From Gemmatimonadaceae bacterium (GTDB lineage Bacteria > Gemmatimonadota > Gemmatimonadetes > Gemmatimonadales > Gemmatimonadaceae), in assembly GCA_025934775.1 (NCBI GenBank), contig JAICWO010000001.1, forward strand, positions 186,001 through 250,000: a stretch of DNA of 64,000 bases, in the 5' to 3' direction. Positions 30,352-46,416 of the stretch are shown in pieces. Within the stretch, counting starts at the first letter, position 1. Each line of letters starts with the position of its first letter. The notes under the pieces were generated by a model. It worked only from the letters and a program-made list of their open reading frames with translations. It ran no database searches and had not been told where the DNA came from. A program made the position numbers and the translations under genes.

Positions 30352-31676
30352 GTATACTAACGAGTCATTCCGAGCGACCGAGCGCAGCGAGGGAGTCGAG
30401 GAATCTGGCCTCCGCTTCGCGAGGCATCCCACGCGCGCCACGAGCCCAGATCCCTCGACTTCGCCGCTTCGCGGCGGCGTTCGGGATGACCCGAGTCGCG
30501 AGTCGCTTCGCGGCGGCGCTCGGGATGACCCTGCTCCTTCCCGCCGCGGCCGTTGCGCAGTCCGCCTTCACCATCTCCGCGAGCAACACGCTCGCGATCG
30601 CCCGACCCGCCGAAACGATCTCGGTGCCGTGGTCCACAGTGCAGCGCGAGCTCGCCGGGGCCAGAGCCGGCGGCGTGCGCGTCATCAGCCTTGGCGCCGG
30701 CCGCGAGATCGTCTCGCAGGTCGTGGACGACGACGGCGACGGCACGATGGACGAGTTGATCTTTCAATCCGACTTCTCGCCAAACGAAGTCCAGCGGTTC
30801 ACGATCGAGGCCGCGGCGGCGCAGGCGAGCTACGCGAAGAAGCGCGTCTACGTCGCGCACGAGGATCCGCGCGACGACGTGGCGTGGGAATCCGACCGGA
30901 TCGCATTCCGCATCTACGGCCAGGGGCTGTGGAAGGTCGATTCGCTGCTCAGCAGCGGCGTCGATATCTGGGTCAAGCGCGTGCGCGACCCGATCGTCGA
31001 CAAGTGGTACAAGAAGGGGCACGACGAGTATCACCACGACAATGGCGAGGGCGCCGATTTCTTCGACGTCGGGCAGTCGCTCGGCGCCGGCGGCACCGCG
31101 ATCTGGAAGAACGATTCGCTCTATCGCGCCTGGAACTTCAAGAGATGGAAGATCATCGCCAACGGCCCGGTGCGCGCGATCTTCGAGTTGTACTATCAGC
31201 CGTGGGACGCGTCCGGAATGCGCGTGACCGAGGTGAAGCGCGTCGCGCTCGACGCGGGTCATAATCTGAATCACGTCACGAGCATTTTCCGCGCGGAGAA
31301 CGGCGTCACGGAGATCCCATGGGCGACCGGGATCGTGAAGCGCCCCTCGGTCGTCGGATCCGAGAGCAAGGCGCGTCCGTGGGCGTGGCTCGCCGAGTGG
31401 GGGCCGATCGTGCCGAAAGACGGCGGACACGGAGACCTCGGCATCGGCATTCTGATGCCGCGCACGTCGGTCGATGATTGGAAGGAGACGAGCGATCACT
31501 ATTTAGCGATCTCTCATACCAAATCTGGTCAGCCGGCGGACTACTGGATCGGCGCCGGCTGGACCGACAGCGGGGACTTCCGCGACGTGCAGGACTGGTG
31601 GAACTATCTCGACCACTGGGCGCAGCGTCTGTCGACGCCGCTCAAAGTCACGGTCGACGCGCCGAGCCATCGATGA
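30348..31676 (+). CDS. Exported DUF4861-family protein of unknown function
   Basis: The open frame starts at 30348 and overlaps kduI (ATGA), giving 442 residues. Its first roughly 60 residues are encoded by repeat R3. The ATG at 30486 gives a clean signal peptide, MTRVASRFAAALGMT then LLLPAAAVA before QSAFT, and is the likely functional start; the ATG at 30525 is another option. The mature protein has the DUF4861 hallmarks as I recall them: a DDDGDGTMDELIFQSDFSPN block, VAWESDRIAFRIYGQGLW, and a Trp-rich C-terminus (YWIGAGWTDSG, DWWNYLDHW). The position among pectin enzymes suggests a lyase, hydrolase or binding role. No function is assigned. Confidence 0.8.
   Translation: MSILTSHSERPSAARESRNLASASRGIPRAPRAQIPRLRRFAAAFGMTRVASRFAAALGMTLLLPAAAVAQSAFTISASNTLAIARPAETISVPWSTVQRELAGARAGGVRVISLGAGREIVSQVVDDDGDGTMDELIFQSDFSPNEVQRFTIEAAAAQASYAKKRVYVAHEDPRDDVAWESDRIAFRIYGQGLWKVDSLLSSGVDIWVKRVRDPIVDKWYKKGHDEYHHDNGEGADFFDVGQSLGAGGTAIWKNDSLYRAWNFKRWKIIANGPVRAIFELYYQPWDASGMRVTEVKRVALDAGHNLNHVTSIFRAENGVTEIPWATGIVKRPSVVGSESKARPWAWLAEWGPIVPKDGGHGDLGIGILMPRTSVDDWKETSDHYLAISHTKSGQPADYWIGAGWTDSGDFRDVQDWWNYLDHWAQRLSTPLKVTVDAPSHR
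30364..30529. repeat. Dispersed palindromic repeat, copy R3 (inside the DUF4861 frame)
   Basis: GTCATTCCGAGCG (from 30364) opens the copy. It closes with GCGTTCGGGATGAC ending at 30490 and again with GCGCTCGGGATGAC ending at 30529, so the right end is present twice. In frame it encodes RFAAAFGMT and RFAAALGMT; the second becomes the core of the predicted signal peptide. Confidence 0.85.
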
Positions 31677-34078
31677 GAGCCGCACTGGTCCTGGTCGCCG
31701 CGCTCGCTGGCGCGTCAACGCTTACCGCGCAGGATACGCGTACCGTCTCCGAGCCGACGCGGCCGGCGGCGTGCAAAGCGTTGGAGGCGGAGCTCCAGCC
31801 GCTCGCCGATACCACGCTCGACGACCGCGACGAAACGAAGCTCGATACGCGGCGGATTCAGTCCGCGATCGACGGCTGTGGCTACGGGAAGGCGGTCGTC
31901 CTCCGCGCGCATGGTGCGAAGACGGCGTTTCTCACCGGCCCGCTCGAGCTGCGGCGCGGCGTGACGCTCGTCGTCGACACCAACGTAGTGCTGTTCGCGT
32001 CGCGCGATCCGCGCGAGTACGACATCGAGCGCCCCGGGCGGTGCGGCACGGTCGACGCGAAAGGGCATCACTGCAAGCCGCTCATCACCGCCGACCACGC
32101 GAACGGCTCCGGCATCATGGGGCCGGGCACGATCGACGGGCGCGGCTGGGCGAAGCTCCTCGGCGACACGGTCTCGTGGTGGGATCTCGCGCAGGACGCC
32201 AAGGTCAAGAACGAGAGCCAGAGCTGCCCGCGATTGATTCAGTTCACGCTCTCGAACGACGTCACGCTCTACGACGTGCGGATCAAGAACTCGCCGAACT
32301 TTCACGTCGTGTTCGATCGCGGCAACGGCTTCACCGCGTGGGGCGTTGTGATCGACACGCGTGATCCGCGCGCGCGCAACACGGATGGCATCGATCCCGC
32401 GAGCGCGACCAACGTCACGATCACGCACAGCGACATCAACACGGGCGACGACGACGTCGCGATCAAGGCGGGCAAGATCCCGAGCTCGCACATGACGATC
32501 TCGCACGATCATTTCTATCGCGGCCACGGGATGTCGATCGGCAGCGAGACCGATGGCGGCGCGAGCGCGATCCGCGTGTTCGATCTGTCGATCGACGGCG
32601 CGGACAACGGACTGCGGATCAAATCGAACGCGGCGCGCGGCGGCTTGGTGCACGACGTCGAGTACCGCGACGTGTGCATCCGCAACACTGGCCACCCGAT
32701 CGAGATGAACACGCACTACTCCGATTCGCCGCAGACGACCGGCATGCTGATTCCCGAGTTCCGCGACATTCGACTGCTGGACGTGCGCGTGCAGGGCGGC
32801 GGCCGTGTGATTCTCCAGGGCTATGACGAGCACCGCCGTCTGACGATGACGTGGAACAACGTCGTCTTCGACGATCCGGCGAAGATCAAGCTGGTGGCCG
32901 CGCACGTGACGATCACGAAGGGATCGGGACCGAGCAACTTGCCAATCTCGGGCGAGGACGTGGTGGTCGAGGGCACGACGTCTGAGGCGCCGGTGAATTC
33001 GTGCGTCGACAAGTTCGTGCCGATGCCGGTCGCGAGCGCCGCGGGTCGCGCGGGCGATTACACGGCCATCGTCGACGCGCGATTCAGCAGAACGGACGGC
33101 GACAGCAGCGCCGGCGCGCCGACGTTTCGCACGCTCGGCGCGGCGCTCACGCACCTGCCGCCGAACGGCGTTGGCCGCGCCGTGATCTTCGTCAGGAACG
33201 GCCGCTATCACGAAAAGCTCACAATCGACCGGCCGTACGTCACGCTGCTCGGCCAGAACCGCGACAGCACGATCATCTCGTACGACGCGGCGGCCGACAC
33301 GCCGAGTCCTGGCGGCGGCACGTACGGCACGCGCGGCAGCTTCACACTCCGCGTGGTGGCGCCCGACTTTCGCGCCGAGAATCTCACGATCGAGAATGCG
33401 TTCGACTATCCCGCGAACGTGGCCAAGCCGGCGACGGATCCGACGAAGCTCAAGAACATGCAAGCCGTCGCGCTCATGCTCGATCTCGATTCCGATCGCG
33501 CGACGTTCGTGAATGACAAGATCACGGGCTATCAGGACACGCTCTTTCCGAACGCGGGTCGAAGCTACTTCTACAAGAGCGAGATCTGGGGCCACGTCGA
33601 TTTCATCTTTGGCGCAGGGCAAGCGGTGTTCGACGACTGCGACATCGTATCGCGCGACCGCGGCAGCCAGACGCTCAACGGCTACGTGACCGCGGCGAGC
33701 ACCAGCATCGCGAAGCCGTACGGCTTTCTCTTCATCCATAGCCGGCTGAAGAAGGACACCCCGAAGATGGCGCCAAACTCGGTGACGCTCGGCCGGCCGT
33801 GGCATCCGTTCGCGAACCCGCGTGCCGTTGCCAGCGTCGCCTATATCGATTGTTGGATGGACGATCACATTGGCGCAAAGGGGTGGGATCGAATGTCCTC
33901 GGTGGACTCCACCGGGACGCGCGTCTGGTACGAGCCGTCGTCGGCGCGATTCGCGGAGTTCGGCTCGACGGGACCCGGCGCGGTGAAGAGCGCGACGCGA
34001 CCGCAACTCACGGCCGATGACGCCAAGCGCTATACGCCGTCGAACGTACTCGATGGCTGGGTGCCGCTGCTCCGTTGA
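31673..34078 (+). CDS. Exported GH28 polygalacturonase-CE8 pectin methylesterase fusion
   Basis: 801 residues from the ATG overlapping the previous stop. The signal peptide ends STLTA before QDTRT. The N-terminal half (about residues 40-440) is a GH28 beta-helix with Asp238 (DGIDP), Asp259-261 (TGDDD) and His285 (GHGMSIGSE). The C-terminal half (about 475-790) is a CE8 beta-helix with GYQDTLF (Asp622), HVDFIFGAG (Asp643) and LGRPWH (Arg708). One polypeptide could remove methyl esters and cut the exposed polygalacturonate. All catalytic residues appear intact. It is the last enzyme gene of the pectin operon. Confidence 0.92.
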   Translation: MRAALVLVAALAGASTLTAQDTRTVSEPTRPAACKALEAELQPLADTTLDDRDETKLDTRRIQSAIDGCGYGKAVVLRAHGAKTAFLTGPLELRRGVTLVVDTNVVLFASRDPREYDIERPGRCGTVDAKGHHCKPLITADHANGSGIMGPGTIDGRGWAKLLGDTVSWWDLAQDAKVKNESQSCPRLIQFTLSNDVTLYDVRIKNSPNFHVVFDRGNGFTAWGVVIDTRDPRARNTDGIDPASATNVTITHSDINTGDDDVAIKAGKIPSSHMTISHDHFYRGHGMSIGSETDGGASAIRVFDLSIDGADNGLRIKSNAARGGLVHDVEYRDVCIRNTGHPIEMNTHYSDSPQTTGMLIPEFRDIRLLDVRVQGGGRVILQGYDEHRRLTMTWNNVVFDDPAKIKLVAAHVTITKGSGPSNLPISGEDVVVEGTTSEAPVNSCVDKFVPMPVASAAGRAGDYTAIVDARFSRTDGDSSAGAPTFRTLGAALTHLPPNGVGRAVIFVRNGRYHEKLTIDRPYVTLLGQNRDSTIISYDAAADTPSPGGGTYGTRGSFTLRVVAPDFRAENLTIENAFDYPANVAKPATDPTKLKNMQAVALMLDLDSDRATFVNDKITGYQDTLFPNAGRSYFYKSEIWGHVDFIFGAGQAVFDDCDIVSRDRGSQTLNGYVTAASTSIAKPYGFLFIHSRLKKDTPKMAPNSVTLGRPWHPFANPRAVASVAYIDCWMDDHIGAKGWDRMSSVDSTGTRVWYEPSSARFAEFGSTGPGAVKSATRPQLTADDAKRYTPSNVLDGWVPLLR

Positions 34079-34138: not shown

Positions 34139-35350
34139 GTGCGAAAGCTCAACACCCGAAATTTCCGACTCGCGACGCGTTCCACGCCGCGCGAGGTGAA
34201 TCGGCAGATCGTGCTCAATCTCATTCGCGAGCACCAGCCGATCTCGCGCGCCGACCTCGCGCGCCGCATGAAAGTTCCGCGCGCGGCGCTGACGACGATC
34301 GTGCGCGAGCTGCTGGAGAGCGGGGCGGTGTACGATTCCGGCGCGGCGACCGCGGTCCGCGGCCGGCGTCCCCGGCTTCTCGCGATTCGCACGAGTGGAC
34401 GCTTCGTCATCGCCGCCGACGTGCGGCAAGGGAACACCTCGCTGGTGTTGGCTGACTTCGGCGGCCAGATCGTCGCGCGCAAGTCGATCCGGACACCCGA
34501 TTCGCCGGCGAAGCTGCTCGATGAGATGGTGACGCAGGTCTCCCGCACCCTCCGCGAGCATCGCGCGAGCGACGGGGAAACGGTGCAGGGCGTCGGCATC
34601 GTGGTGCCTGGAATGGTCGATCGCCACTCCGGCCGCGTGCTCTACGCGCCGCGACTCGGCTGGCGCGATGTCGATCTGCAAGAGCCGCTCTCGGCGCGGC
34701 TCGGGCTGCCGGTGTCGATCGAGAGCGCGCCGATCGCGTGCGCGCTCGCGCGCCTCTGGGCGATGAAGGGCGACTCGCGCGCCGTGAACAACTTCGCGTA
34801 CGTGAGCGTGTCCGACGGCGTCGGTGTCGCCGTCGTCGTCCGCGGTGAAGTGTTGCGCGGCGAAGACCACACCGCGGGCGAGATCGGCCACGTGTCGCTC
34901 GACCCCAACGGCCCGCAGTGCGCGTGCGGCAAGCGCGGATGCTGGGAGGCCTTCTGCTGCAACGCCGCGACGGTCGCTCGGTATGCCGGCGCGCTGGGCA
35001 CGCGCTCGGCGGCCCGCGGCGCGACCACCGTCGAGGAGATCGTGCGCCGCGCGCTGCGCGGCGAGGCGGCCGCCGTGAAAGCGATCACCCAGACCGGCCA
35101 GCAGATCGGCCGCGGCCTCGCCGCGGTAGTGAGCGCGTTCAATCCCAAACGCATCTACGTCGGCGGCGAGATCACCGCCGCGTGGGACATGATCGAGCGG
35201 CCGATGCGGATCGAGCTCGAGCACGGCACGCTGACCGAGGCGGCCCGCAACACGCCGATTCACCCCGACGCCAACCCCGCCGAGTACCGCCTGCTCGGCG
35301 CGGTGGCCCTCGTGTCGTCGCCGGCGTTCGAGATGCCGAGAATCGGATAG
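34139..35350 (+). CDS. ROK-family transcriptional regulator 2
   Basis: 403 residues from a GTG start, 60 bases after the GH28-CE8 stop. The domain layout is the same as the ROK gene at 15871: N-terminal winged helix (REVNRQIVLNLI, ISRADLARRMKV), then a ROK domain with zinc motif CACGKRGCWEAF and the GIVVPGMVD and AGEIGHVSLDP blocks. The first 45 residues nearly match regulator 1, while the effector half diverges more. It may be co-transcribed with the pectin operon and act as a second sensor. Confidence 0.9.
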   Translation: MRKLNTRNFRLATRSTPREVNRQIVLNLIREHQPISRADLARRMKVPRAALTTIVRELLESGAVYDSGAATAVRGRRPRLLAIRTSGRFVIAADVRQGNTSLVLADFGGQIVARKSIRTPDSPAKLLDEMVTQVSRTLREHRASDGETVQGVGIVVPGMVDRHSGRVLYAPRLGWRDVDLQEPLSARLGLPVSIESAPIACALARLWAMKGDSRAVNNFAYVSVSDGVGVAVVVRGEVLRGEDHTAGEIGHVSLDPNGPQCACGKRGCWEAFCCNAATVARYAGALGTRSAARGATTVEEIVRRALRGEAAAVKAITQTGQQIGRGLAAVVSAFNPKRIYVGGEITAAWDMIERPMRIELEHGTLTEAARNTPIHPDANPAEYRLLGAVALVSSPAFEMPRIG

Positions 35351-35579: not shown

Positions 35580-37211
35580 ATGCCGAGCTTCCGGGTGCTC
35601 GTCACAGACGAGGTGGATCCGCAGGGTGTCGAGCTCCTGCGAAGCCATCCGTCGCTCATCGTCGATGAGCGGCCCACCCGGCCATGGCGCGACTTGCTCG
35701 GCGAGATCGGCGAGTACGACGCGATCGTCGGACGCAGCGCCACGCAGATCCCCGGCGAGCTGCTTCGCGCCGCGACAAAGCTCCGCGTCATCGGGCGCGC
35801 CGGCGTCGGCACCGACAACATCGATCTCGCGACCGCGACCGAGCTCGGCATCGCGGTGATCAACGCGCCAGCGGGCAACACCATCGCCGTCGCGGAGCTC
35901 TTCTTCGGCGTCATGGTCTCGCTCGTCCGCCACCTGCCGGACGCATTCGCGTCGATGCGCGCCGGGCGATGGGATCGCACGAAGCTCCTCGGCACCGAGC
36001 TGCGCGGGCGCACCCTCGGCATCGTCGGTCTCGGACGAATCGGCGGCGAGGTGTCGTCGCGCGCGCGCGCCTTCGGGCTCCGCGTCATCGCGTGCGATCC
36101 ATATCTGCCGCGCGACCGCTTCGAGTTGCTGCGTGTCGAACGTGTGACCACCCTCGAAGAGCTGCTCGAGCAAGCCGACATCATCACGGTGCACACGCCG
36201 CTCACCGAGGAGACGCGCGGCATGATCGGCGAGCGCGAGCTCGCCCGCCTCAGAGCCGGCGCGGTCGTCGTGAACATGGCGCGCGGCGGCATCGTCAACG
36301 AAGACGCGCTGCGTGCCGCGCTCGAGAGCGGTCACGTGCGTGCCGCCGCGCTCGACGTGTATTCCAAGGAGCCGCTCGCGGCGGAGCATCCGCTCCGAAC
36401 GATGCCGAACGTGATCCTCACGCCCCACCTCGGCGCCTCGACCGCCGAAGGCCAGCGCAACGTCGCCGTGGACGCGTGCATCGCGGTCCGCGATGCGCTG
36501 CTCAGCGGCGCGCTCGCTGGGGCGGTGAACCTGGTCGACGTCGATCGCGAGCGGTGGAAGGAGATGCGCGGCGCGCTCCAGCTCGCCCGTCACTCCGCCG
36601 CGATCGGGCGCGCGATGCTCGCCGAGTGGGGCGCGCCGACCATCGCGCAGGTCACGGTGCACGTCGGCGCGCAGTTCGCCGGTGCCGAGAGCCTGCTCGT
36701 CGCCTCCGCCGCCGAAGGCACGCTCGCGCCGATCACGAACGGCGACCGCGTGAACGTGATCAACGCGCGCGCCCGCGCCGCCGAGCGCGGCATCGCCATC
36801 GCGACGCTGCCGGCTGATCCGGCGGCCGATCCATTCTCGATTCGTGTGACGATGAACGCCGACGGGCGCGCGCTCACGGTCGGCGGCGTCGCCGTCCCCG
36901 GTGCACCGCCGCGTCTCACGCGAATCGGCGAGTTCAAGGTCGACGTGACGCCGCGGCGCACGCTCATCGTCCTCACGAACGCCGACGTGCCCGGAGTGAT
37001 CGGCAACGTCGGCACCGTGCTGGGCAACGCCGGGATCAACATCGCCGAGTATCACCAGGCGCGGCTCCGCGTCGGCGGCGAGGCGCTCGCCGCGATCTCG
37101 GTCGACGGCGTCGTGACCGAGCCGGTGCGCCGCGCGCTCCTCGGCGTGCACGATGTTCGCACCGCGACGGTGGTCGATTGCGGCGACGGCGAGTCGGATT
37201 CATGGAGCTGA
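35580..37211 (+). CDS. serA: D-3-phosphoglycerate dehydrogenase, long form with ACT domain
   Basis: 543 residues, the long form. It oxidises 3-phosphoglycerate to 3-phosphohydroxypyruvate in serine synthesis; SerA can also reduce 2-oxoglutarate to D-2-hydroxyglutarate. Domain order is substrate-binding, then the nucleotide-binding Rossmann core (VGLGRIGGEVSSRA), catalytic Arg in NMARGGIVNE, His in LTPHLGAST, then an intervening domain (about 320-450) and a C-terminal ACT domain (IVLTNADVPGVIGNVGTVLG). It begins a five-gene operon; its end overlaps the next gene by 10 nt. Confidence 0.93.
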   Translation: MPSFRVLVTDEVDPQGVELLRSHPSLIVDERPTRPWRDLLGEIGEYDAIVGRSATQIPGELLRAATKLRVIGRAGVGTDNIDLATATELGIAVINAPAGNTIAVAELFFGVMVSLVRHLPDAFASMRAGRWDRTKLLGTELRGRTLGIVGLGRIGGEVSSRARAFGLRVIACDPYLPRDRFELLRVERVTTLEELLEQADIITVHTPLTEETRGMIGERELARLRAGAVVVNMARGGIVNEDALRAALESGHVRAAALDVYSKEPLAAEHPLRTMPNVILTPHLGASTAEGQRNVAVDACIAVRDALLSGALAGAVNLVDVDRERWKEMRGALQLARHSAAIGRAMLAEWGAPTIAQVTVHVGAQFAGAESLLVASAAEGTLAPITNGDRVNVINARARAAERGIAIATLPADPAADPFSIRVTMNADGRALTVGGVAVPGAPPRLTRIGEFKVDVTPRRTLIVLTNADVPGVIGNVGTVLGNAGINIAEYHQARLRVGGEALAAISVDGVVTEPVRRALLGVHDVRTATVVDCGDGESDSWS

Positions 37212-38584
37212 GCCGCGACCTGGACGTGCGGCGTGCCTACGCGCGCGACGTCTCAGGGTTGGAGCTCGTCCCCGATGCCGTCGCGCGCCCCACGAGCGCC
37301 GACGAGATCATAGATCTCGTACGAGCCGCCATCGCCGATCACACGACGCTCACCGCGGCCGGCTCTCAGACGAGCACCACCGGCGCATCGATCACCGGCG
37401 AGGGCGCGCTCGTGTCGATGCGCGCGATGACTCGTATCATCGACATCGATACGGTGGAGCGCGTCGCCCGCGTCGAACCGGGCATCACGGTCGGCGCGCT
37501 CAATCAGGAACTCGCGTCAGCGAGCCTTCGATTCGCGCCGGATCCTACGAGCGAGCACGACGCGACGATCGGCGGCGCGATCGCGTGCAACGCGTCAGGC
37601 GCGCGGTCGCTGCGGTATGGTCCGACGCGCGCACACGTGCGCGCCGTGCGCGTCGTGAACGGTGATGGCAACGCCGTCGCGCTGCGGCGGCCCGGGCTCG
37701 AGAAGAACACCGTCGGGTACTACGCGGCACAGGATCCGGTGGACTGGATCGTCGGCAGCGAGGGAACGCTCGGCATCGTCGTCGAAGCGGAGCTGGCGCT
37801 CGTGCGGATGCCCGATCACGAGATCGGTCTCGCGATTCCGTTTCCGGACGAACGCTCGGCGCTCCGCTTCGTCGTGCACGCGCGCGAGCACGCGGACGGC
37901 GATGCGCTCACCCGCCCGCAGTGCCTCGAGTTCTTCGACTGCGGGTCGCTCGCGATCGCGCGTGCCGACGTCGGTTCGCTACGCTGGATGAACGGCGCCG
38001 CGGCGCTGGTGTACCTCGAGCAGGCGCTCGATGCCGATCAGCCCGTGGCCGAGTCGCTCGATCGCTGGCTCGCCAGCGCGCAGGCCTTCGGCGCGCGGGC
38101 CGACGACATCGAAGTGTTCGGCGACGCGCCGGCGCTCCGCGCGGCGCGAAAATTTCGACATGCGGTCCCGGCGCACATGAACGAGCGCGGTTCGGCGCGC
38201 CGTCCTTTCGGCGGTCGAAAGGTGTCGACCGACTGGGCAGTGCCGTATCGGCGGCTCGCCGATGCGCTCGAGGCGGCTCGCCGCGCCGCCGACGGCCAGA
38301 AGATCGAGCCGCCGATCACGTACGGGCACGCCGGCAATGGACATCCTCACCAGAACTTCATCGCCGCGGACGCGGAGGAATTATGGCGAATCAATGGGCT
38401 GATCGAAGAGACGATCCGAGCGGTGCTCCGGCTCGGGGGGACGGCCGCGGCGGAGCACGGCCTGGGAAAGCTGAAGAGGCCATGGCTGCGGGCGCAGCTC
38501 TCGCCCGTACAGATCGAGCTGATGCTCGCGCTCAAGCGCGCGCTCGACCCCTTGGGCTTGTTCGCTCCGGGGAACGTCCTGTGA
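37202..38584 (+). CDS. FAD-linked D-2-hydroxyacid dehydrogenase (glycolate oxidase / D-2-hydroxyglutarate dehydrogenase family)
   Basis: 460 residues from the ATG at 37202, inside the end of serA. The N-terminal PCMH-type FAD domain shows RPTSADEIIDLV, TTGASITGEGALVSM, GGAIACNASGARSLRYG and GSEGTLGIV. The C-terminal cap and metal region has GHAGNGHPHQNF and AAEHGLGKLK, typical of the GlcD/DLD/D2HGDH family. The substrate is not fixed by sequence. Beside serA, D-2-hydroxyglutarate is attractive, because removing it helps pull SerA forward in Pseudomonas. That is an inference from context. Confidence 0.82.
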   Translation: MELSRDLDVRRAYARDVSGLELVPDAVARPTSADEIIDLVRAAIADHTTLTAAGSQTSTTGASITGEGALVSMRAMTRIIDIDTVERVARVEPGITVGALNQELASASLRFAPDPTSEHDATIGGAIACNASGARSLRYGPTRAHVRAVRVVNGDGNAVALRRPGLEKNTVGYYAAQDPVDWIVGSEGTLGIVVEAELALVRMPDHEIGLAIPFPDERSALRFVVHAREHADGDALTRPQCLEFFDCGSLAIARADVGSLRWMNGAAALVYLEQALDADQPVAESLDRWLASAQAFGARADDIEVFGDAPALRAARKFRHAVPAHMNERGSARRPFGGRKVSTDWAVPYRRLADALEAARRAADGQKIEPPITYGHAGNGHPHQNFIAADAEELWRINGLIEETIRAVLRLGGTAAAEHGLGKLKRPWLRAQLSPVQIELMLALKRALDPLGLFAPGNVL

Positions 38585-39237
38585 GCGCCGGCGCGCCCGC
38601 ATACGCGACCGTCGTCCTCGACGTCGATTCCACGGTCGCCGGTGTCGAGGGTATCGATTGGCTCGCCGAGCGCCGCGGAGAGGTCGTCGCGCGCACCGTG
38701 TCGCAGCTCACCGACGACGCGATGCGCGGCGCGATTCCGCTCGAGCAGGTGTACGGCCGCCGGCTTGCCGCGATCCGTCCGCGCCGCGACGACGTGGACG
38801 CGCTCGCCCACGCATACATCGACGCGCTCGCCGAGGGGGCGATCGAAGCGCTCGCGACGCTCCGGCGCGCTGGCGTGCACGTCGCGCTCGTGAGCAGCGG
38901 TCTCAGGCCCGCGCTGCTCCGCCTCGCGCTCGAGCTGAACGTCGACCCGCAGGATCTCCACGCGGTGGACGTGCGGTTCGACGCACTCGGCACGTACGTC
39001 GGCTTCGACGAGAGCTCGCCGTTGACGACCGCGAACGGCAAGCGCGAGGTGGTCGCCTCACTCGGCGCGGACCATCCGCTGTTGATGGTCGGCGACGGTG
39101 CGACCGATCTCGCCGCGCGCGACGCCGCCGACGCCTTCGCCGCGTTCACCGGCTTCGTCAGGCGGGAGGCAGTGATTCAGAAGGCAGATTTCGTGATCGA
39201 GTCGTTCACGCAACTCGTCTCCACAGTGCTCAAATAG
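38581..39237 (+). CDS. serB: HAD-family phosphoserine phosphatase-like protein
   Basis: 218 residues from a GTG that overlaps the previous stop (GTGA). HAD motifs are VVLDVDSTVAG (nucleophile Asp14 and Asp16), VALVSSGLRPA (motif II Ser), the Lys in TTANGKREVV, and MVGDGATDLAARD (motif IV). VDSTVAGVEGIDWLA resembles the SerB cap entry, where a Glu contacts phosphoserine. With serA two genes upstream, the final step of serine synthesis is the natural role. The next gene starts 32 bases on. Confidence 0.85.
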   Translation: MSAGAPAYATVVLDVDSTVAGVEGIDWLAERRGEVVARTVSQLTDDAMRGAIPLEQVYGRRLAAIRPRRDDVDALAHAYIDALAEGAIEALATLRRAGVHVALVSSGLRPALLRLALELNVDPQDLHAVDVRFDALGTYVGFDESSPLTTANGKREVVASLGADHPLLMVGDGATDLAARDAADAFAAFTGFVRREAVIQKADFVIESFTQLVSTVLK

Positions 39238-39269
39238 TCTCCACACTCCACTCTCTACTCTCCCCCCAC

Positions 39270-40484
39270 ATGCCCGCCATCGAAGCGCTCTCCGCCAACA
39301 AGCTCGACGCCATCTCGTTCGGAAAAATCGTCCAGATTCGCGAGAAGCTCCTGAAGGCCCAGGCCGGAGGCGCGAAGGTCGTGCGGTTCGAGTCCGGTGA
39401 CCCGAGCTTCTCGGTGCCGCCGCACGTGCTCGACGCGATCGCCGCCGCGGGCGCCGCGGGCAAGACGCACTACGTTCCTAACGACGGCATCCCCGAGTTG
39501 CGCAGAGCGCTCGCCGAGAAGCTCCGCACCAAGAACGGGATCGCCGACGTCGAACCCACCGACGTCTATCTCACGAACGGCGCCATGCACGCGCTCTACG
39601 TGACGTTCGGCACGCTCCTCTCCGAGGGCGACGAGGTGATCATCCCCGATCCCATGTGGACCGAGGTCGCGGAGAACATTCGCCTCGCGGGCGGCGTCCC
39701 CGCGCGCGTGGTCGTCGACGCCGAGCACGGCTACGCGTACGATCCCGACGCGATCGCCGCCGCCATCACGCCGCAGACGCGCGCGATCTTCGTCAACTCG
39801 CCGCACAATCCGACCGGCGCCGTCGCGCCGCGCGAGACGCTCGAGGCGATCGTCGACCTCGCGCGCGAGCACGATCTCTGGATCGTCTCCGACGAAGCGT
39901 ACGAGGACGTGCTCTACGAGCCCTACGTCCACCACTCGATCGCCTCGCTCGCCGGCGACTGGGCGCCGCGCGTCATCAGCGTATTCTCATTCTCGAAGAG
40001 TCACGCGATGCCCGGACTGCGGACAGGCTATCTCGTGACCAAGTCGCCGGTGCTCCAGGAGCGCATCCAGAAGCTGCTGCGCTGTACGATCAACGGCGTC
40101 AACAGCCTGGCGCAGTGGGGCGCGCTCGCCGCGGTCACCGGTCCCCAGGATCACCTGCCCGCGATGCGTGCCGAATACGCGGTGCGCCGCACCCTCATCG
40201 TCGACGCGCTGAGCGGCATTCCGGGTGTGCGCCCGTTCCAGCCGCACGGCGCGTTCTACCTCTGGGCGGAGCTCGACGCGCCGCTCTATCGCAAGCTCGG
40301 CGTCTCGGGCGCCGATGCGCTGTCCGAGCGATTGGCGGATGCTGGCATCGGCAGCGCGCCGGGCGATGCCTTCGGCGAGCACTGCGCCGACGCGATTCGA
40401 TTCGCGTTCAGCTGCTCGACGGAGATGGTTCGCAATGGCGCGGCCCAACTCCGCGCCGCGCTCACCGGCGAGACCCGCATATGA
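39270..40484 (+). CDS. Class I PLP-dependent aminotransferase
   Basis: 404 residues, AspC/AAT-I fold. Motifs are FESGDPSFSVPPHV (N-terminal arm), NGAMHALY, VNSPHNPTGA, VSDEAYEDVLY and the PLP Lys243 in FSFSKSHAMPGLRTGY, with a C-terminal Arg in AIRFAFS. The amino donor and acceptor cannot be read from sequence. In this operon it could transaminate phosphohydroxypyruvate, the missing SerC step. Coupled to the downstream omega-amidase-like protein, it could instead be a glutamine transaminase. Its stop overlaps the next start by 4 nt. Confidence 0.88.
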   Translation: MPAIEALSANKLDAISFGKIVQIREKLLKAQAGGAKVVRFESGDPSFSVPPHVLDAIAAAGAAGKTHYVPNDGIPELRRALAEKLRTKNGIADVEPTDVYLTNGAMHALYVTFGTLLSEGDEVIIPDPMWTEVAENIRLAGGVPARVVVDAEHGYAYDPDAIAAAITPQTRAIFVNSPHNPTGAVAPRETLEAIVDLAREHDLWIVSDEAYEDVLYEPYVHHSIASLAGDWAPRVISVFSFSKSHAMPGLRTGYLVTKSPVLQERIQKLLRCTINGVNSLAQWGALAAVTGPQDHLPAMRAEYAVRRTLIVDALSGIPGVRPFQPHGAFYLWAELDAPLYRKLGVSGADALSERLADAGIGSAPGDAFGEHCADAIRFAFSCSTEMVRNGAAQLRAALTGETRI

Positions 40485-41254
40485 GCGACACGCGCCTCAC
40501 GCTCGCCCTCGGCGAGTACGACATCGGCTGGCACGATCCCACACGCTCGCTCGCCGCCGCGGAGCGCATCTTCGAGCGCACCGCGTCGGTCGGTGCGCAG
40601 GTCGTCGTGCTCCCCGAGATGACGACCACCGGCTTCACGATGGACCGCGAGCAGTCCGTGCCGATCGACTCGGGCGAGGTCCACGCCCTGCGCGAGCTCG
40701 CGCGCAAATACGATGTGTGGACGGTCGCCGGCGTCGCGCTGCGCGCCGAGGAAGATCCCGCGTGCGCGGTGAATGCCGCGCTGGCGATCGATCCGTCCGG
40801 CGACATCGTCGCGATCCACCGCAAGCAGCGCCTCTTTGCCTACGGCGAGGAGCACAAGGCCTACGCGCCGGGGACGGAGTCGACCGTGATCACGATCGGC
40901 GGCGTGCACGTCGGCATCTTCATCTGCTACGAGCTGCGCTTTCCCGAAGTGTTCGGCGCCGTGGCGCGCGAGGTCGATGCGATGGTGCTCATCGCGAACT
41001 GGCCGGCGATGCGACAGGAACATTGGGACGCGCTCCTCCGTGCCCGCGCGATCGAGAACCAGTGCTACGTCGTCGGCGTGAACCGCGTCGGCACCGCGAA
41101 CGGCCTCGCCTACGTCGGCGGCTCGACCGGATTCGATCCCTGGGGCGATCGCATGCCGCCGGCCCTCTGCGGCTCCACGCGCCTCGTCACCGTCGACGCG
41201 TCGCGCACCCGCGAGTTGCGAGCGAAGTATCCGTTCTTGAAGGACCGACGATAG
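40481..41254 (+). CDS. Carbon-nitrogen hydrolase, omega-amidase (Nit2/YafV)-like
   Basis: 257 residues, the typical nitrilase-superfamily single domain. The catalytic triad is Glu46 (LPEMTTTGF), Lys115 (HRKQRLF) and Cys149 (FICYELRFPE). LPEM-TTTGF, the Phe-rich approach and ANWPAMRQEHW are like omega-amidases, which hydrolyse 2-oxoglutaramate or 2-oxosuccinamate left by glutamine or asparagine transaminases. It is translationally coupled to the aminotransferase, which fits that pairing. It is the last gene of the operon and is followed by a strong hairpin. Confidence 0.85.
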   Translation: MSDTRLTLALGEYDIGWHDPTRSLAAAERIFERTASVGAQVVVLPEMTTTGFTMDREQSVPIDSGEVHALRELARKYDVWTVAGVALRAEEDPACAVNAALAIDPSGDIVAIHRKQRLFAYGEEHKAYAPGTESTVITIGGVHVGIFICYELRFPEVFGAVAREVDAMVLIANWPAMRQEHWDALLRARAIENQCYVVGVNRVGTANGLAYVGGSTGFDPWGDRMPPALCGSTRLVTVDASRTRELRAKYPFLKDRR

Positions 41255-41429: not shown

Positions 41430-42998
41430 TCACCATCCCGGATTCTGATGCCCGCGCAGCGCCGGGTTTAGATCCAACGCACGCTGCGGGATCGGCATCA
41501 GCTTGTACTTGTCGTCCACGCCGTTATTCGCCTTCGGGAACTTGCTCGTCTTCGAGTTCGCATGCGCCATGCTCTGGAGCACGCGCGCCTTCGCCCACGC
41601 CCAGTTCCGCTGGCTGTCGAAGTAGCCGTTGGGTCCCTCGAGCGAGAGCTCCCACCGGCGTTCCACGAATACTGAATCGCGGAACAGATCGTGGCTCAGT
41701 CCGGGCGTGAGGTTCGGGATCCCCGCACGCGCGCGCACCTGGTTGATCGCCGCGTACGCCTCCGCCGTCGGGCCGCCGCTCACCTCGTTGGCCGCCTCGG
41801 CCTGCATCAGCAGCACTTCGGCATAGCGGAGGATGATGTAGTTCGGCTCCTCGGCGCCCGTCCCCGTCATCTGCACGTCGAGGAACTTGAGCGGGAAGGG
41901 CGTCTCGCTCTTGTACGGCTGCGACGCGCTCTTGCTCTCCTGCCACGTGTTGATCGTGCCGTTCTGACTCCAGGCGAGCAGGAACGTGCCGTTGATGCGC
42001 TTGTCGCCCGGTTTGAAGCTGTGGAACCAGATGCTCTCCGCCTCGAACGAGCCGTTCGTCGACGCGCCCATGTACGGGGCGCTGCCGTTCGGCGCCATGT
42101 GCGACGAGATGCGGCCGCCCAGCCCCGGTGCGCGCACATTCTGAATATCAAATATGACTTCGCTATTGTTCTCGTTCACCGTGCCGCCGTAGAAGTCGAA
42201 CAGCGTCTTGTAGTCCGGCACGAGCGCGTACTCGCCGCTCTGCACCACCTGGCGCGAGAGGGTGAGCGAGTTCTGCCAGTCCGACGCGCCGGTCACGCCG
42301 GTGCCCGCCGACTGGAGATACACCTTCGCGAGCAGCGTCTTCGCCGCGCCTTCCGACGCCCGCCCGATGTCCGCGCCGGTGTACGTCTTCGCCGGCGGCA
42401 GCACCGCGATCGCGTCCTTCAGGTCCTTCTCGATCTGCGCGTACACGTCCGCGGCCGACGCGCGCGGGATCTCCAGGCTGTCCAGCCCCTGCGTCTCGTG
42501 CAGCTTGAGCGGCACGCCGCCGAACATCCGCACGAGGTTGAAGTAGTGCAGCGCGCGCAGGAACTTCGCCTCGCCCACGATCCGGCTGCGCAGCGTCGTG
42601 TCCATGTCGATGGTCGGCACGTGGTCGAGCACCGAGTTCGCGCGGTTGATCGCGTCGTACGCCGATGCCCAGACCGATTGCACGTACGAGTGCGACACCG
42701 GAATGCTGTAGTTGTCCGGCTGGCTGCGCTCGTTCGTCGCAGAGAGGCGGCTGGTCCACATCTCCGTGGGATACTCGACGAGCATCACGAAGTTGCGGCC
42801 GTAGTAGTTGTCGCCCGTGCTGTTGATGAAATCCGCATAGACGCCGTTGATCGCGGCGAGCGCGTCGCCGGCGTTGTGATAGAAGTTGGACGGACCGATG
42901 AAGTCGAACGGCTTCTCGGTCAGAAACGCCTTGTCGTTGCAACCCATCACGGCCGCGGTGGCGACCGCCGCGAGGGCCACATGCCAACGTGTGTGCAT
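41430..42998 (-). CDS. SusD/RagB-family glycan-binding lipoprotein 1
   Basis: 522 residues. It has a lipoprotein signal with VMGC followed by NDKAFLTEKP, the standard start of SusD proteins. TPR-like helical blocks follow: YDAINRANSVLDHVP, IVGEAKFLRALHYFNLVRMFGGVPL, AKTLLAKVYLQS, and the late YIILRYAEVLLMQAEAANE and FVERRWELSLEG. It caps the SusC1 transporter at the cell surface and captures oligosaccharides. A good ribosome binding site (AGGAG) precedes the ATG, and the gene follows susC1 by 16 bases. Confidence 0.93.
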   Translation of the reverse strand: MHTRWHVALAAVATAAVMGCNDKAFLTEKPFDFIGPSNFYHNAGDALAAINGVYADFINSTGDNYYGRNFVMLVEYPTEMWTSRLSATNERSQPDNYSIPVSHSYVQSVWASAYDAINRANSVLDHVPTIDMDTTLRSRIVGEAKFLRALHYFNLVRMFGGVPLKLHETQGLDSLEIPRASAADVYAQIEKDLKDAIAVLPPAKTYTGADIGRASEGAAKTLLAKVYLQSAGTGVTGASDWQNSLTLSRQVVQSGEYALVPDYKTLFDFYGGTVNENNSEVIFDIQNVRAPGLGGRISSHMAPNGSAPYMGASTNGSFEAESIWFHSFKPGDKRINGTFLLAWSQNGTINTWQESKSASQPYKSETPFPLKFLDVQMTGTGAEEPNYIILRYAEVLLMQAEAANEVSGGPTAEAYAAINQVRARAGIPNLTPGLSHDLFRDSVFVERRWELSLEGPNGYFDSQRNWAWAKARVLQSMAHANSKTSKFPKANNGVDDKYKLMPIPQRALDLNPALRGHQNPGW

Positions 42999-43014
42999 TG
43001 GAGGTCTCCTCGCC

Positions 43015-46000
43015 TTAGTAAATGACGTTGATGCCGACGGTCACGCTCTTCGCGAGCGGATAGGCGCCCACGTCGATGCCGCGGTTCACGTTCCCGATCC
43101 CGAGACTGCTCACGTCGGGATTGAAGCCGCTGTAGCGCGTGAACGTGAGCAGGTTCGCGCCGGTGACGTACAGCTTAGTCGAGCTCACGCCGTAGCCGCG
43201 CAGGAACCGCGGCGACACCGAGTAGTCGAGCGTGATCGCGCGCATCCGGAAGTACGACCCGTCCTCGAGCAGGTCGCTCGTGATGTCCGAACCGATCGTC
43301 CCCGGCGTGAAGTTGATGCGCGGATACTTCGCGTTCGGATTCGTCGGCGTCCACGCGTCCGTGAAGCGGTCAGCGATGATGTTCGTCCCCGGACTCCCTT
43401 GCTCGAGGCGCACGTTGTTCATGTTCAGCACCTTGTTGCCGTACACGAAGTCCGACGTGGTGCTCAGGTGGAAGCTCCGGAAGCTGAAGTTGTTCACCCA
43501 GCCGCCCGCGAACTTCGGATTCGGATCGCCGATGATCGTGCGGTCGGCCGCGTCGATCTTGCCGTCGCCGCCCGGCACGATGTTCCCCGCCGAATCCGTG
43601 TGCGCGATGTCGAGCAGCTTCACGTCGCCGGCATGCCACGCCGTGCCGGACAACGGCTTCACCTGCGCCGTGTACGCCGCCGCCGATGCTGAATCGCGGA
43701 GAATGCCGCCCGCCTGATAACCATAGAACACGCCGAGCGGATAGCCGACTTGAATCAGCGTGCCGAGCAGCTTGAGATCGCTGTTGATGCTGCTCGCGAA
43801 GATGTTCTGCACGCCGCCCAGATCCAGCACGCGGTTCTTGTTGTGCGAGTAGCTGAACGTCGTCGACCACCCGAAGCTCCGCGCGTCCCCGCGGACCAGG
43901 TTGAGCGTGACCTGCGCTTCATAGCCGTTGTTCTGCACCGCGCCCACGTTCTGGAGCGCCGACGCGAAGCCCGACTCGAATGGCAGGTTCACCGCGAGCA
44001 GCAGGTCGCTCGTCTTCTTGTGATAGACGTCCCCCGTGAAGCTCGCGCGTCCGTTGCGCAGGCTCAGGTCGATGCCGCCGTCGATCTGGTGCGTGCTCTC
44101 CCAGCCGAGGTTCGGGTTGCCGACCGACGACGGGAAGAACGCCGGCACCACCTGGCCGCCGAACGTGTAGTTGTCCGGCGAGAGGTGCGCCACCGACTGG
44201 TACGGCCGGATCGACGGGTTGCCCGCGAAGCCGTCCGAGATGCGCAGCTTGAGCAGATCGATCGAGCTCACGTGCTGGAAGAACGGCTCGTCCGAGATGC
44301 GCCAGCCGAACGCCGCCGACGGGAAGAAGCCCCACTGATGATCCGCGCCGAAGCGCGACGACCCGTCGCGACGCCCGGTGACGGTGAACAGGTACCGGTT
44401 CGCCAGCGTGTAGTTCACGCGCCCGAGGTACGACGCCAGCGTCCACCGCGTGTGGCTCGACGAGACCGTCGGGCCGCCGGCCTGCGTGCCCGCGCCGATC
44501 GATTCGAACACGTCGATGTCGCTCACGAAGTTGCTGTTCCGGATCTGGCTGTTGACGATGTCGTCCTGCTGGCGCGTGTAGCCGGCCACCGCGTTGATCG
44601 CCTGCGATGTGCCGAGGCCGTTGAACGACTTGTCGTACGTGAGCGTATTCTCGTTCAAGAAGTCTGTCGTCTGCGTGGTGCCGCGGATCGCCGACCCGTT
44701 CACGCCGGAGCCCTGGAGCGTCGTGCGCGGGTAGTACGTGTTCCGCCCGCGGTTCGAAAGGTCGCCGCCCACGCTCACCCGCAGCTTGAGATCGGGCGTG
44801 AAGTCGTAGTCGCCCGCCGCGTTCGACAGCACCCGCGTGTCGTTGAGCTGATCCGTCACCTGGCTCGCCGTCGCCACCGGATTCGGAATGTTCGTCGGCG
44901 TCAGGATCGGCGACGGGCTGTTCTGACCCATCAGCGTGTACGTCCCGTCCGCCTGCTTCACCGGCAGAATCGGGTAGTAGTCGATTGCCGCGCCCACTGC
45001 GCCCGCGCCGCCGTTCAGCGAGCCGTCGGTCGGGACCATCGAGCTGTTCACTCGGCTCACCGACAGATTCCCGTTCACGCGGAACCGCGTCCCGATCCCC
45101 TGGTCCAGATTGCCGCGCATCGCCAGGCGCTTGAACGACGAGTTGATGACCACGCCCTGCTGCTGGAACACGCCGCCCGAGAGCGCATAGCGCGTCGAGT
45201 TCGTGCCCGACCCGCCGCCCGTGACGCCGAGCTGCAGGTTGCTGATCGGCGCGTTGCGGAAGAGCATCGATTGCCAGTCCGTATTCGGCAGCGCCGTCGT
45301 GTCCTGGAAGATCACGCCCGTGCCGTTCGCGATCGACCACTGGTTGGCGAAGTCCGCGAACTGCGTCGCGTTGAGCAGGTCGTAGCGATGCGCCACGCTC
45401 TGCGTGCCCGTGTACGTGTCGATCGTGAACTGCGGCTTTGCCGACGTCCCGTGCTTCGTCGTGATGATGATGACGCCGTTCGCGCCGCGCGCGCCGTAGA
45501 TCGACGTCGCCGACGCGTCCTTCAGAATCTCGATCGATTCGATGTCGTCGGGGTTGAGCGCGGAGAGCGGATCGGACGGCACGGTCGTCGACGCATCGCG
45601 GCCGCCGTCGCTCGGATTCTGCGCGTCGGGATCGTTCTCGATCGGGAAGCCGTCGATCACGTACAGCGGCTCGTTGTTGCCGGTGACCGAGCTGCCGCCG
45701 CGAATGCGGATCGACATCCCGCCGCCCGGCGCCGCCGATGCCTGCGTGACGACCACGCCCGGCGCCGCGCCTTGCAGCGCCTGCTCGAGCGACAACGTCG
45801 GCGTCTGCGCCACGTTCGGCGTCACCGAGCTCACGGAGCCGGTGAGATCGGAGCGCCGCTGCGCGCCGTAGCCGACGACGACCATCTGGTCGAGCGTCAC
45901 GGACGCCGCGCTCATGGCGAGGTTGAGCGTCACCGTCTCGCCGGACGCGACGTTCACCGCTTGATCGACCGGCGAGTAGCCGATGCGTGCGGCGCGGACG

Positions 46001-46221
46001 TGCTGCGCGCCACTCGGCGCGCTGTTGATAGTGTACCGGCCGTCGGGCCCGGTGCGGGCGCCGAGCGTTGTGCCAGTGATGGTGACCGAGACATTCGCCA
46101 CGGGCGCGCCCGCGGTGCGGTCAGTGATGGTCCCGGTGATTCTCCCCGTCGTCTGTGCGCGCGCGGTCTGGGCGAGACCGGCGGACACGGCGAGGCAGGT
46201 GAGAGCTCGCATCCATTTCAT
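43015..46221 (-). CDS. SusC/RagA-family TonB-dependent transporter 1
   Basis: 1068 residues from the ATG at 46221 with AAGGAG 10 bases upstream. The frame continues to 46407 but that part is the regulatory region. The signal peptide ends QTARA before QTTGR. Domain order is carboxypeptidase-regulatory-like domain (about 24-105, GRITGTITDRTAGAPV), plug (VVVGYGAQRRSDLTGSVSSV; KDASATSIYGARGANGV), then a 22-strand barrel ending PLAKSVTVGINVIY. It imports oligosaccharides using TonB energy. An operator-like palindrome lies 35 bases upstream. Confidence 0.94.
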   Translation of the reverse strand: MKWMRALTCLAVSAGLAQTARAQTTGRITGTITDRTAGAPVANVSVTITGTTLGARTGPDGRYTINSAPSGAQHVRAARIGYSPVDQAVNVASGETVTLNLAMSAASVTLDQMVVVGYGAQRRSDLTGSVSSVTPNVAQTPTLSLEQALQGAAPGVVVTQASAAPGGGMSIRIRGGSSVTGNNEPLYVIDGFPIENDPDAQNPSDGGRDASTTVPSDPLSALNPDDIESIEILKDASATSIYGARGANGVIIITTKHGTSAKPQFTIDTYTGTQSVAHRYDLLNATQFADFANQWSIANGTGVIFQDTTALPNTDWQSMLFRNAPISNLQLGVTGGGSGTNSTRYALSGGVFQQQGVVINSSFKRLAMRGNLDQGIGTRFRVNGNLSVSRVNSSMVPTDGSLNGGAGAVGAAIDYYPILPVKQADGTYTLMGQNSPSPILTPTNIPNPVATASQVTDQLNDTRVLSNAAGDYDFTPDLKLRVSVGGDLSNRGRNTYYPRTTLQGSGVNGSAIRGTTQTTDFLNENTLTYDKSFNGLGTSQAINAVAGYTRQQDDIVNSQIRNSNFVSDIDVFESIGAGTQAGGPTVSSSHTRWTLASYLGRVNYTLANRYLFTVTGRRDGSSRFGADHQWGFFPSAAFGWRISDEPFFQHVSSIDLLKLRISDGFAGNPSIRPYQSVAHLSPDNYTFGGQVVPAFFPSSVGNPNLGWESTHQIDGGIDLSLRNGRASFTGDVYHKKTSDLLLAVNLPFESGFASALQNVGAVQNNGYEAQVTLNLVRGDARSFGWSTTFSYSHNKNRVLDLGGVQNIFASSINSDLKLLGTLIQVGYPLGVFYGYQAGGILRDSASAAAYTAQVKPLSGTAWHAGDVKLLDIAHTDSAGNIVPGGDGKIDAADRTIIGDPNPKFAGGWVNNFSFRSFHLSTTSDFVYGNKVLNMNNVRLEQGSPGTNIIADRFTDAWTPTNPNAKYPRINFTPGTIGSDITSDLLEDGSYFRMRAITLDYSVSPRFLRGYGVSSTKLYVTGANLLTFTRYSGFNPDVSSLGIGNVNRGIDVGAYPLAKSVTVGINVIY

Positions 46222-46255
46222 GCCAGGATCTCCTTCGTGGTCAGGACGAGGACAC

Positions 46256-46278
46256 ATTTGTTCGTTATAAGAACAAAT
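46256..46278. promoter_or_regulatory. Operator-like palindrome upstream of susC1 (site 2)
   Basis: ATTTGTTC-N7-GAACAAAT, a perfect 8-bp inverted repeat in the susC1/GH2 divergent region. Its core matches site 1 exactly in the form TTTGTT-N9-AACAAA. On the minus strand the centre reads TATAAC, a possible -10 hexamer, so a bound protein would block susC1 transcription. Confidence 0.65.
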
Positions 46279-46416
46279 GAGGCGCGAACGCGCGATAATT
46301 CTGTGATCCGGTGCGGCTCGGCGGGGGGCGCGTCCGCCGACGTGGTGCGGCGCTACTCCTACAGAAACACGGCGCGTAGCCGTGCTCGTCACATCAGAAC
46401 GCCGCATGAACGAGAT

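Follow-up and report, generated by a model that had tools for sequence, protein, structure and literature searches.

A conserved serA–FAD dehydrogenase gene unit in a Gemmatimonadota serine operon and a candidate substitute for serC

The DNA analyzed here (the window) is a stretch of 64,000 nucleotides from a Gemmatimonadaceae bacterium, corresponding to positions 186001-250000 of contig C47 in the host genome. This genome measures 4.88 Mb in 47 contigs and is 99% complete. We studied a cluster of serine biosynthesis genes at positions 35580-41254 of the window, in which a gene for a flavin adenine dinucleotide (FAD)-linked dehydrogenase follows serA. The cluster contains five + strand genes, in the order serA, FAD dehydrogenase, SerB-like phosphatase, class I aminotransferase and carbon-nitrogen (CN) hydrolase. 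They and the gene upstream are as follows.

35580..37211, + strand: serA, long (Type I) 3-phosphoglycerate dehydrogenase, 543 residues; TIGR01327, nearest solved chain 1ygy
37202..38584, + strand: predicted FAD-linked D-2-hydroxyacid dehydrogenase, 460 residues, PF01565/PF02913; its ATG overlaps the serA stop
38581..39237, + strand: SerB-like HAD-IB phosphatase, 218 residues; its GTG start overlaps the stop of the FAD gene
39270..40484, + strand: class I aminotransferase, 404 residues, PF00155 (Aminotran_1_2); a lineage-specific neighbor outside the conserved serine operon
40481..41254, + strand: Nit2/YafV-like CN hydrolase (omega-amidase type), 257 residues, PF00795; paired with the class I aminotransferase
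34139..35350, + strand: ROK-family regulator (Pfam ROK), just upstream of serA

The first-pass annotation of this DNA had described five genes that overlap or nearly touch, and all five were found. Neighboring genes overlap by 10, 4 and 4 bases, and the single gap, 32 bases long, separates the SerB-like and class I aminotransferase genes. Nothing of note was found around the cluster in terms of promoters, terminators, repeats or Rfam families.

SerA is clearly assigned. It scores 522 bits against TIGR01327 (cut-off 454), and its nearest solved chain, 1ygy, is a D-3-phosphoglycerate dehydrogenase. Among its Pfam domains, PGDH_inter scores 28, over its cut-off of 27, and ACT scores 24.8, just under its cut-off of 27. 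It is the sole PF00389 match in the host genome. The SerB-like protein scores 84.5 bits against TIGR00338, under the cut-off of 144.15, and 54.8 bits against the HAD-IB model TIGR01488, over the cut-off of 45. Its nearest solved structures are human phosphoserine phosphatases (8e-31), 1nnl among them.

Comparison with relatives indicated that serA and the FAD gene form a conserved unit. We gathered 58 Gemmatimonadota loci encoding the FAD protein (51-70% identical to the window protein) and determined their gene content by tblastn at 1e-8, with flanks of at most 9 kb; many of these loci end at contig ends. The common gene order is serA–FAD–serB–class V (AGT-type) aminotransferase. serA was found in 55 loci and serB in 54. 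Of the three loci without serA, two start inside the FAD gene, and L060 truly lacks it. By coordinates, serA is located directly upstream of the FAD gene in 59 of 66 FAD-positive genomes, a count that used 74 serA rows, those down to 53% identity. It rises to 60 with genome G062, in which a contig break hid serA. The FAD enzyme is seen in four family-level groups of the phylum. The serA–FAD pair can stand as a unit, since it occurs without adjacent serB or AGT genes in G037, G041 and G168, each of which has canonical serC elsewhere. G041 and G168 also retain a short form of SerA before serC. G037 is the only one without a short SerA beside serC, which rules out that all three exchanged the short SerA for SerA–FAD. 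Conversely, serA, serB and AGT are found together without the FAD gene in loci L136, L141, L144 and L145. The FAD gene is therefore a facultative member of the operon, located immediately after serA.

The two enzymes also co-occur across genomes. With thresholds of 1e-70 for the FAD enzyme and 1e-60 for the long SerA, 54 of 87 sampled genomes of the family contain both, 2 contain the FAD enzyme only, 12 contain SerA only and 19 contain neither. The corresponding numbers in the phylum sample (n=249) are 62, 4, 103 and 80. Fisher's test gives p of about 3e-9 in the family and in the phylum sample, in which related genomes are not independent.

The FAD enzyme has two Pfam domains, FAD_binding_4 (PF01565) and FAD-oxidase_C (PF02913), and no iron-sulphur domain. 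Its scores are 203.4 bits against the GlcD model, far under the NCBIfam equivalog cut-off of 567.9, and 108.4 bits against the YdiJ model NF049975, with a cut-off of 1350. A structure prediction of fair quality (predicted local distance difference test, pLDDT, 82.4; predicted template modeling score, pTM, 0.83) was compared with solved structures by Foldseek. At the top of the ranking stand mouse LDHD, LctD and a D-lactate dehydrogenase; 3pm9 is found at rank 18 and human D-2-hydroxyglutarate dehydrogenase (D2HGDH) at rank 22 (6lpn, TM 0.81, 22% identity in the fold alignment). Template modeling (TM) scores are near 0.8 for all of these.

Pocket residues were mapped by sequence alignment, with 46 of the 59 available FAD orthologues aligned. 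The equivalents of R386, H434, H441, E475 and H476, three of which (H434, H441 and E475) are predicted metal ligands, are invariant in all 46. The equivalent of N443 is likewise found in 46/46, and that of Y432 in 44/46 (Phe in 2). At these two of the four distal positions, Tyr432 and Asn443, the FAD enzyme is similar to D2HGDH and not to lactate or glycolate dehydrogenases. Position 390 is Pro in 46/46; a Pro at 390 is reported for yeast DLD2 and DLD3, which nevertheless retain the distal Lys (K401). Just before the K401 position, the predicted strand 337-346 carries an Arg in 46/46, plus a basic residue (Lys in 36, Arg in 10) two positions before the K401 equivalent. The Asn of the GDGNxH motif is replaced by His in 46/46. 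The alignment points to a D-2-hydroxyacid site of the metal type whose distal end is polar and basic; it is neither lactate- or glycolate-like nor a full match to D2HGDH.

An alternative reading of the protein is an ordinary D-lactate or glycolate dehydrogenase. In sequence and fold it is best matched by mouse LDHD, by LctD and by a chain that bears the name glycolate oxidase, the entry of which reads D-lactate dehydrogenase, and it does match the GlcD model at 203 bits. However, this score is far under that model's cut-off, and Tyr and Asn occupy positions where those enzymes have small and hydrophobic residues. A closer GlcD homologue, a shortened copy with about 412 bits (L011), is located elsewhere in the genome, and the FAD gene is flanked by serA and the serB-like gene, not by glcE/glcF. 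We consider this assignment improbable.

The SerA reaction runs uphill. We propose that the FAD enzyme serves the serine pathway at the SerA step, acting on D-2-hydroxyglutarate or 3-phosphoglycerate, with a rough probability of 45%. Each substrate, taken separately, is less certain. Removal of the D-2-hydroxyglutarate that SerA would make from 2-oxoglutarate is a tentative option, somewhat unlikely by itself. A flavin-dependent 3-phosphoglycerate dehydrogenase, converting 3-phosphoglycerate straight to phosphohydroxypyruvate, is doubtful. It would render the unfavorable first step of serine synthesis irreversible, with SerA alongside in most genomes and dispensable in a few.

The closest precedent is the SerA–D2HGDH pair of Pseudomonas stutzeri and Pseudomonas aeruginosa, where a flavin D-2-hydroxyacid dehydrogenase is tied to SerA (PMC9504171). 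The residues of its metal and alpha-hydroxyacid site, and the equivalents of Tyr432 and Asn443, are present in the window enzyme. Unlike the Pseudomonas system, the window enzyme is distant (22% identity to human D2HGDH) and the distal Lys is gone; the window SerA is Type I, and the FAD gene overlaps serA in one operon. The enterobacterial D-2-hydroxyglutarate dehydrogenase YdiJ shares the PF01565/PF02913 domains, but the window enzyme is without its iron-sulphur domain and reaches 108 bits where the cut-off is 1350.

Several observations weigh against a role at the SerA step. The best sequence and fold matches of the FAD enzyme are D-lactate dehydrogenases, not D2HGDH. The K401 equivalent is gone from 46/46 orthologues (Ser in 45, Gly in 1); this Lys is described as strict in D-2-hydroxyglutarate dehydrogenase orthologues, where it binds the C5 carboxylate (PMC7801405). 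Two proteins of YdiJ layout are encoded elsewhere in the host genome, and the one scanned reaches 502 of 1350 bits. Among SerA-positive genomes of the phylum sample, 103 of 165 are without the FAD enzyme at 1e-70. Four FAD-positive genomes (G057, G188, G044 and G147) have no long SerA at 1e-60; in G188, G044 and G147 this absence refers to the long-SerA query and does not cover short SerA. In G044 and G147, the latter on a 6.4 kb contig, the FAD gene has neither a SerA nor an AGT neighbor. Finally, the window SerA is Type I: reduction of 2-oxoglutarate is described as a frequent property of Type II enzymes that those of Type I and III examined so far do not share, although the same source lists human PHGDH as able to reduce 2-oxoglutarate (PMC9504171).

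The first-pass annotation had suggested that both unfavorable steps of the pathway are pulled, oxidation by flavin-linked removal of 2-hydroxyglutarate and transamination by hydrolysis of 2-oxoglutaramate. This interpretation holds in part. Its FAD half is strengthened by the comparison of relatives: the serA–FAD arrangement is conserved (60/66), and Tyr432 and Asn443 are D2HGDH-like. The missing strict Lys and the Type I SerA, for which 2-oxoglutarate reduction is not the rule, make D-2-hydroxyglutarate a tentative substrate. The published flavin-linked pull on SerA that we found was described for the Type II enzyme of proteobacteria (PMC9504171). If the FAD enzyme does act at the SerA step, a flavin enzyme with a changed pocket that shares an operon with Type I SerA would represent an independent solution to the problem or a new enzyme. 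None of the titles and abstracts listed in literature searches on the Gemmatimonadetes serine pathway and on flavin 3-phosphoglycerate dehydrogenases describes this operon.

A role in vitamin B6 synthesis was weighed against the serine role. The FAD enzyme would then be a PdxR-type 4-phospho-D-erythronate dehydrogenase, and the aminotransferase of the operon would serve both phosphohydroxypyruvate and the B6 intermediate, which would explain the place of the FAD gene among serine genes. In Sinorhizobium meliloti, an FAD-dependent PF02913 enzyme is reported to perform the pdxB step; for many clades, a 2023 survey still counts this step as a gap (PMC9997740). In the host genome there is no PF00389 gene besides SerA, and therefore no PdxB candidate. 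With the distal Lys lost and two basic residues always present, the site might accommodate a phosphate. G057 and G188 have the FAD gene directly before AGT but match neither the long SerA (1e-60) nor the SerB-like protein (1e-3), and both have PdxJ. In G057, a SerA query at 1e-10 found only two matches of 37-39% (run on G249, taken as the same genome). PdxJ, used in print as a mark of the 1-deoxy-D-xylulose 5-phosphate-dependent B6 route, is matched in 243/249 phylum genomes including the host, G000. Its distribution was dropped as a direct test of the B6 role, because a nearly universal gene cannot separate FAD-positive from FAD-negative genomes. Nevertheless, PdxJ is nearly constant while the FAD enzyme tracks SerA: 31 of the 87 family genomes are without the FAD enzyme, yet 86 have PdxJ. 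No match to pdxA, pdxJ or epd (E. coli queries, 1e-8) was found in 119 loci or in the window.

PdxR (S. meliloti SMc00985; DVU0827 has been proposed as another) was compared at the level of family and role: both are PF02913 flavoenzymes, and PdxR would feed the same aminotransferase. In contrast, the window FAD gene follows SerA, not B6 genes. S. meliloti PdxR was not identified in a plasmid collection, and the one match examined further, from Rhizobium tropici, is an LDHD homologue. Adjacency to serA, the tracking of SerA, the PdxJ-positive genomes without the FAD enzyme and the lack of B6 neighbors were set against G057/G188, and we therefore rank the serine role first and the B6 role, which is somewhat unlikely although the main rival, second. 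If it is the B6 enzyme instead, it would fill a pathway gap listed as open for many clades (PMC9997740).

The transamination step of the pathway was addressed through serC. The first-pass annotation had seen no canonical serC in the window, and our TIGR01364 search extended this to the whole host genome, with zero matches at E<=1. A canonical serC outside the window was rejected on this basis. As a control, the same model was run on 14 known genomes; it matched 12 of them, and 4 scored over its cut-off. In the phylum sample, canonical serC scores over the cut-off in 20/249 genomes. We examined the neighborhoods of 11 of these 20 places. A short SerA is located directly before serC in 8/11 (L153-L156 and L158-L161; L161 starts inside the short SerA). 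These short SerAs are 64-73% identical to the query, the short SerA of L158, and in 7 of the 8 loci they are preceded by a gene that we read from its translation as DUF1015-like. L151 and L152 have a more distant SerA, located after serC. L157 (G037) has no SerA beside serC, and the same genome has the long SerA–FAD pair elsewhere. G063 and G083, two of the 19 family genomes with neither long SerA nor FAD enzyme, have canonical SerC followed by a distant SerA.

A class V aminotransferase of the AGT type appears to take the place of serC. It is present in 49/58 FAD loci. Five of the other nine stop at a contig end (L018, L022, L049, L057 and L063), and in four (L017, L021, L023 and L033) it was not found within reach by tblastn at 1e-8. 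It also accompanies serA or serB in 15/20 further serA neighborhoods, which include a second order, serB–AGT–serA, without FAD. In the host genome, the class V orthologue is on contig C35 with no serine genes adjacent. Matches of 72-73% are similarly found off the serA contig in G144 and in the genome of L017, and a 50% match in G016. A FastTree tree was built from 73 locus rows, with two sequences duplicated and 41 residues of L069 unread, together with the host and G144 copies. The C35 gene falls within the operon copies (support 0.82) and is joined with G144 (1.0), and a paralogue on contig C20 is far from this clade. The pyridoxal phosphate lysine is present in 76/76 aligned rows. An HR motif occurs in 75/75 rows and also in the C20 paralogue; it therefore proves nothing as a mark of serC and was dropped. 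The C20 enzyme itself (L007) was rejected as the substitute: it is 33% identical to the C35 enzyme, and its neighbors are a symporter gene and a gene read as RraA-like.

Among solved structures, 2dr1 is closest to the class V enzyme; it is labeled a 'hypothetical serine aminotransferase'. On the basis of gene neighborhood, the C35 enzyme is the likely serC substitute of the host genome, and enzymes of this type are candidates to fill the serC gap in most sampled Gemmatimonadota. Synechocystis SerC2 (sll1559) is an earlier example of a phosphoserine transaminase that does not belong to the SerC family (PMC9997740); the class V role differs in being proposed from gene neighborhood.

Taken together, the region may be viewed as a re-joined Gemmatimonadota serine operon, serA–FAD–serB–serC substitute (class V, AGT type). 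The host has the class V gene outside the operon on C35 and an independent aminotransferase/omega-amidase pair behind serB. SerA would oxidize 3-phosphoglycerate with nicotinamide adenine dinucleotide (NAD+), amination of phosphohydroxypyruvate probably falls to the class V enzyme, and the SerB-like enzyme would take off the phosphate. The FAD enzyme, predicted to be metal-dependent, would hand electrons irreversibly to a flavin or quinone acceptor.

The class I aminotransferase and CN hydrolase of the window have a different distribution. Neither has a match in any of the 58 FAD loci (tblastn 1e-8, flanks of at most 9 kb). At 1e-70, the aminotransferase is matched in 23 of 148 family genomes, the host included, and not in the other 125. 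Neighborhoods were examined at 19 of the remaining 22 places. The aminotransferase is directly followed by a close CN hydrolase (48-61%) in 13/19; a weak one (28-29%) is near it in 3/19 and none is found in 3/19. A serB-like gene precedes the aminotransferase in just two of these loci, L104 and L105, both of the same genus as the host; there the serB-like gene is in turn preceded by a gene whose translation resembles the ROK regulator at 34139-35350. In G144, the serA–FAD–serB cluster is about 36 kb from the aminotransferase on the same contig. The 13/19 pairing, the serB-like neighbor in 2/19 and the 36 kb separation in G144 indicate that the two genes form an independent module, which became joined to serA–FAD–serB in the host. 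It is most likely a recent neighbor and not part of serine synthesis.

A glutamine donor combined with an omega-amidase that makes transamination irreversible is an established idea (PMC6302742). The window pair is similar to glutamine transaminase–omega-amidase pairs in that the aminotransferase and Nit2/YafV-like hydrolase genes overlap. However, the window aminotransferase is closest to aspartate aminotransferases (1j32 and 1gc3, 232 and 231 bits), compared with 134 bits for the glutamine aminotransferase 1v2d, and its assignment as a glutamine transaminase is not borne out. The CN hydrolase scores 151.7 bits against the YafV model PRK10438, under the cut-off of 249. Its E46, K115 and C149, presumably the Glu-Lys-Cys triad, are invariant in 9/9 aligned sequences.

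These data bear on the complete two-pull model, with the class I enzyme as a glutamine-using phosphoserine aminotransferase, an omega-amidase pull and an FAD pull on SerA. The five genes do form one tight + strand cluster in a genome without canonical serC, the serB-like–aminotransferase order recurs in L104 and L105, and the amidase residues E46, K115 and C149 are intact. Against this, the pair is in 0/58 FAD loci and 125/148 family genomes have no aminotransferase match at 1e-70, the aspartate aminotransferases outscore 1v2d (232 vs 134 bits), and a class V substitute is present in the host genome. The complete model is very improbable. Its proposal that the aminotransferase/omega-amidase pair performs the serine transamination is set aside, as the pair is its own module and the class V enzyme fills the place of serC.

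Two further loci concern the pair. In L104 (G144), a second, diverged SerB-like gene (7793-8437, 47%) precedes the aminotransferase, in addition to the operon serB of the genome. In L115 (G212, 6690-11817), the aminotransferase–CN hydrolase pair is back to back with glnK-, amtB- and ROK-like genes, as read from translations without a family search. This nitrogen setting would suit ammonia release.

Outside the cluster, a single + strand open reading frame at 31478-34078 encodes a glycoside hydrolase 28 (GH28) domain and a pectinesterase domain. A frame with a similar reading is found upstream of serA in L017 (3201-5687). On the − strand, a SusD/SusC-type pair at 41430-46407 (SusD_RagB; TonB plug and carboxypeptidase-regulatory domain) is directed at the serine cluster from downstream. 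The pectin enzyme and the SusD/SusC-type pair suggest a pectin-use region.

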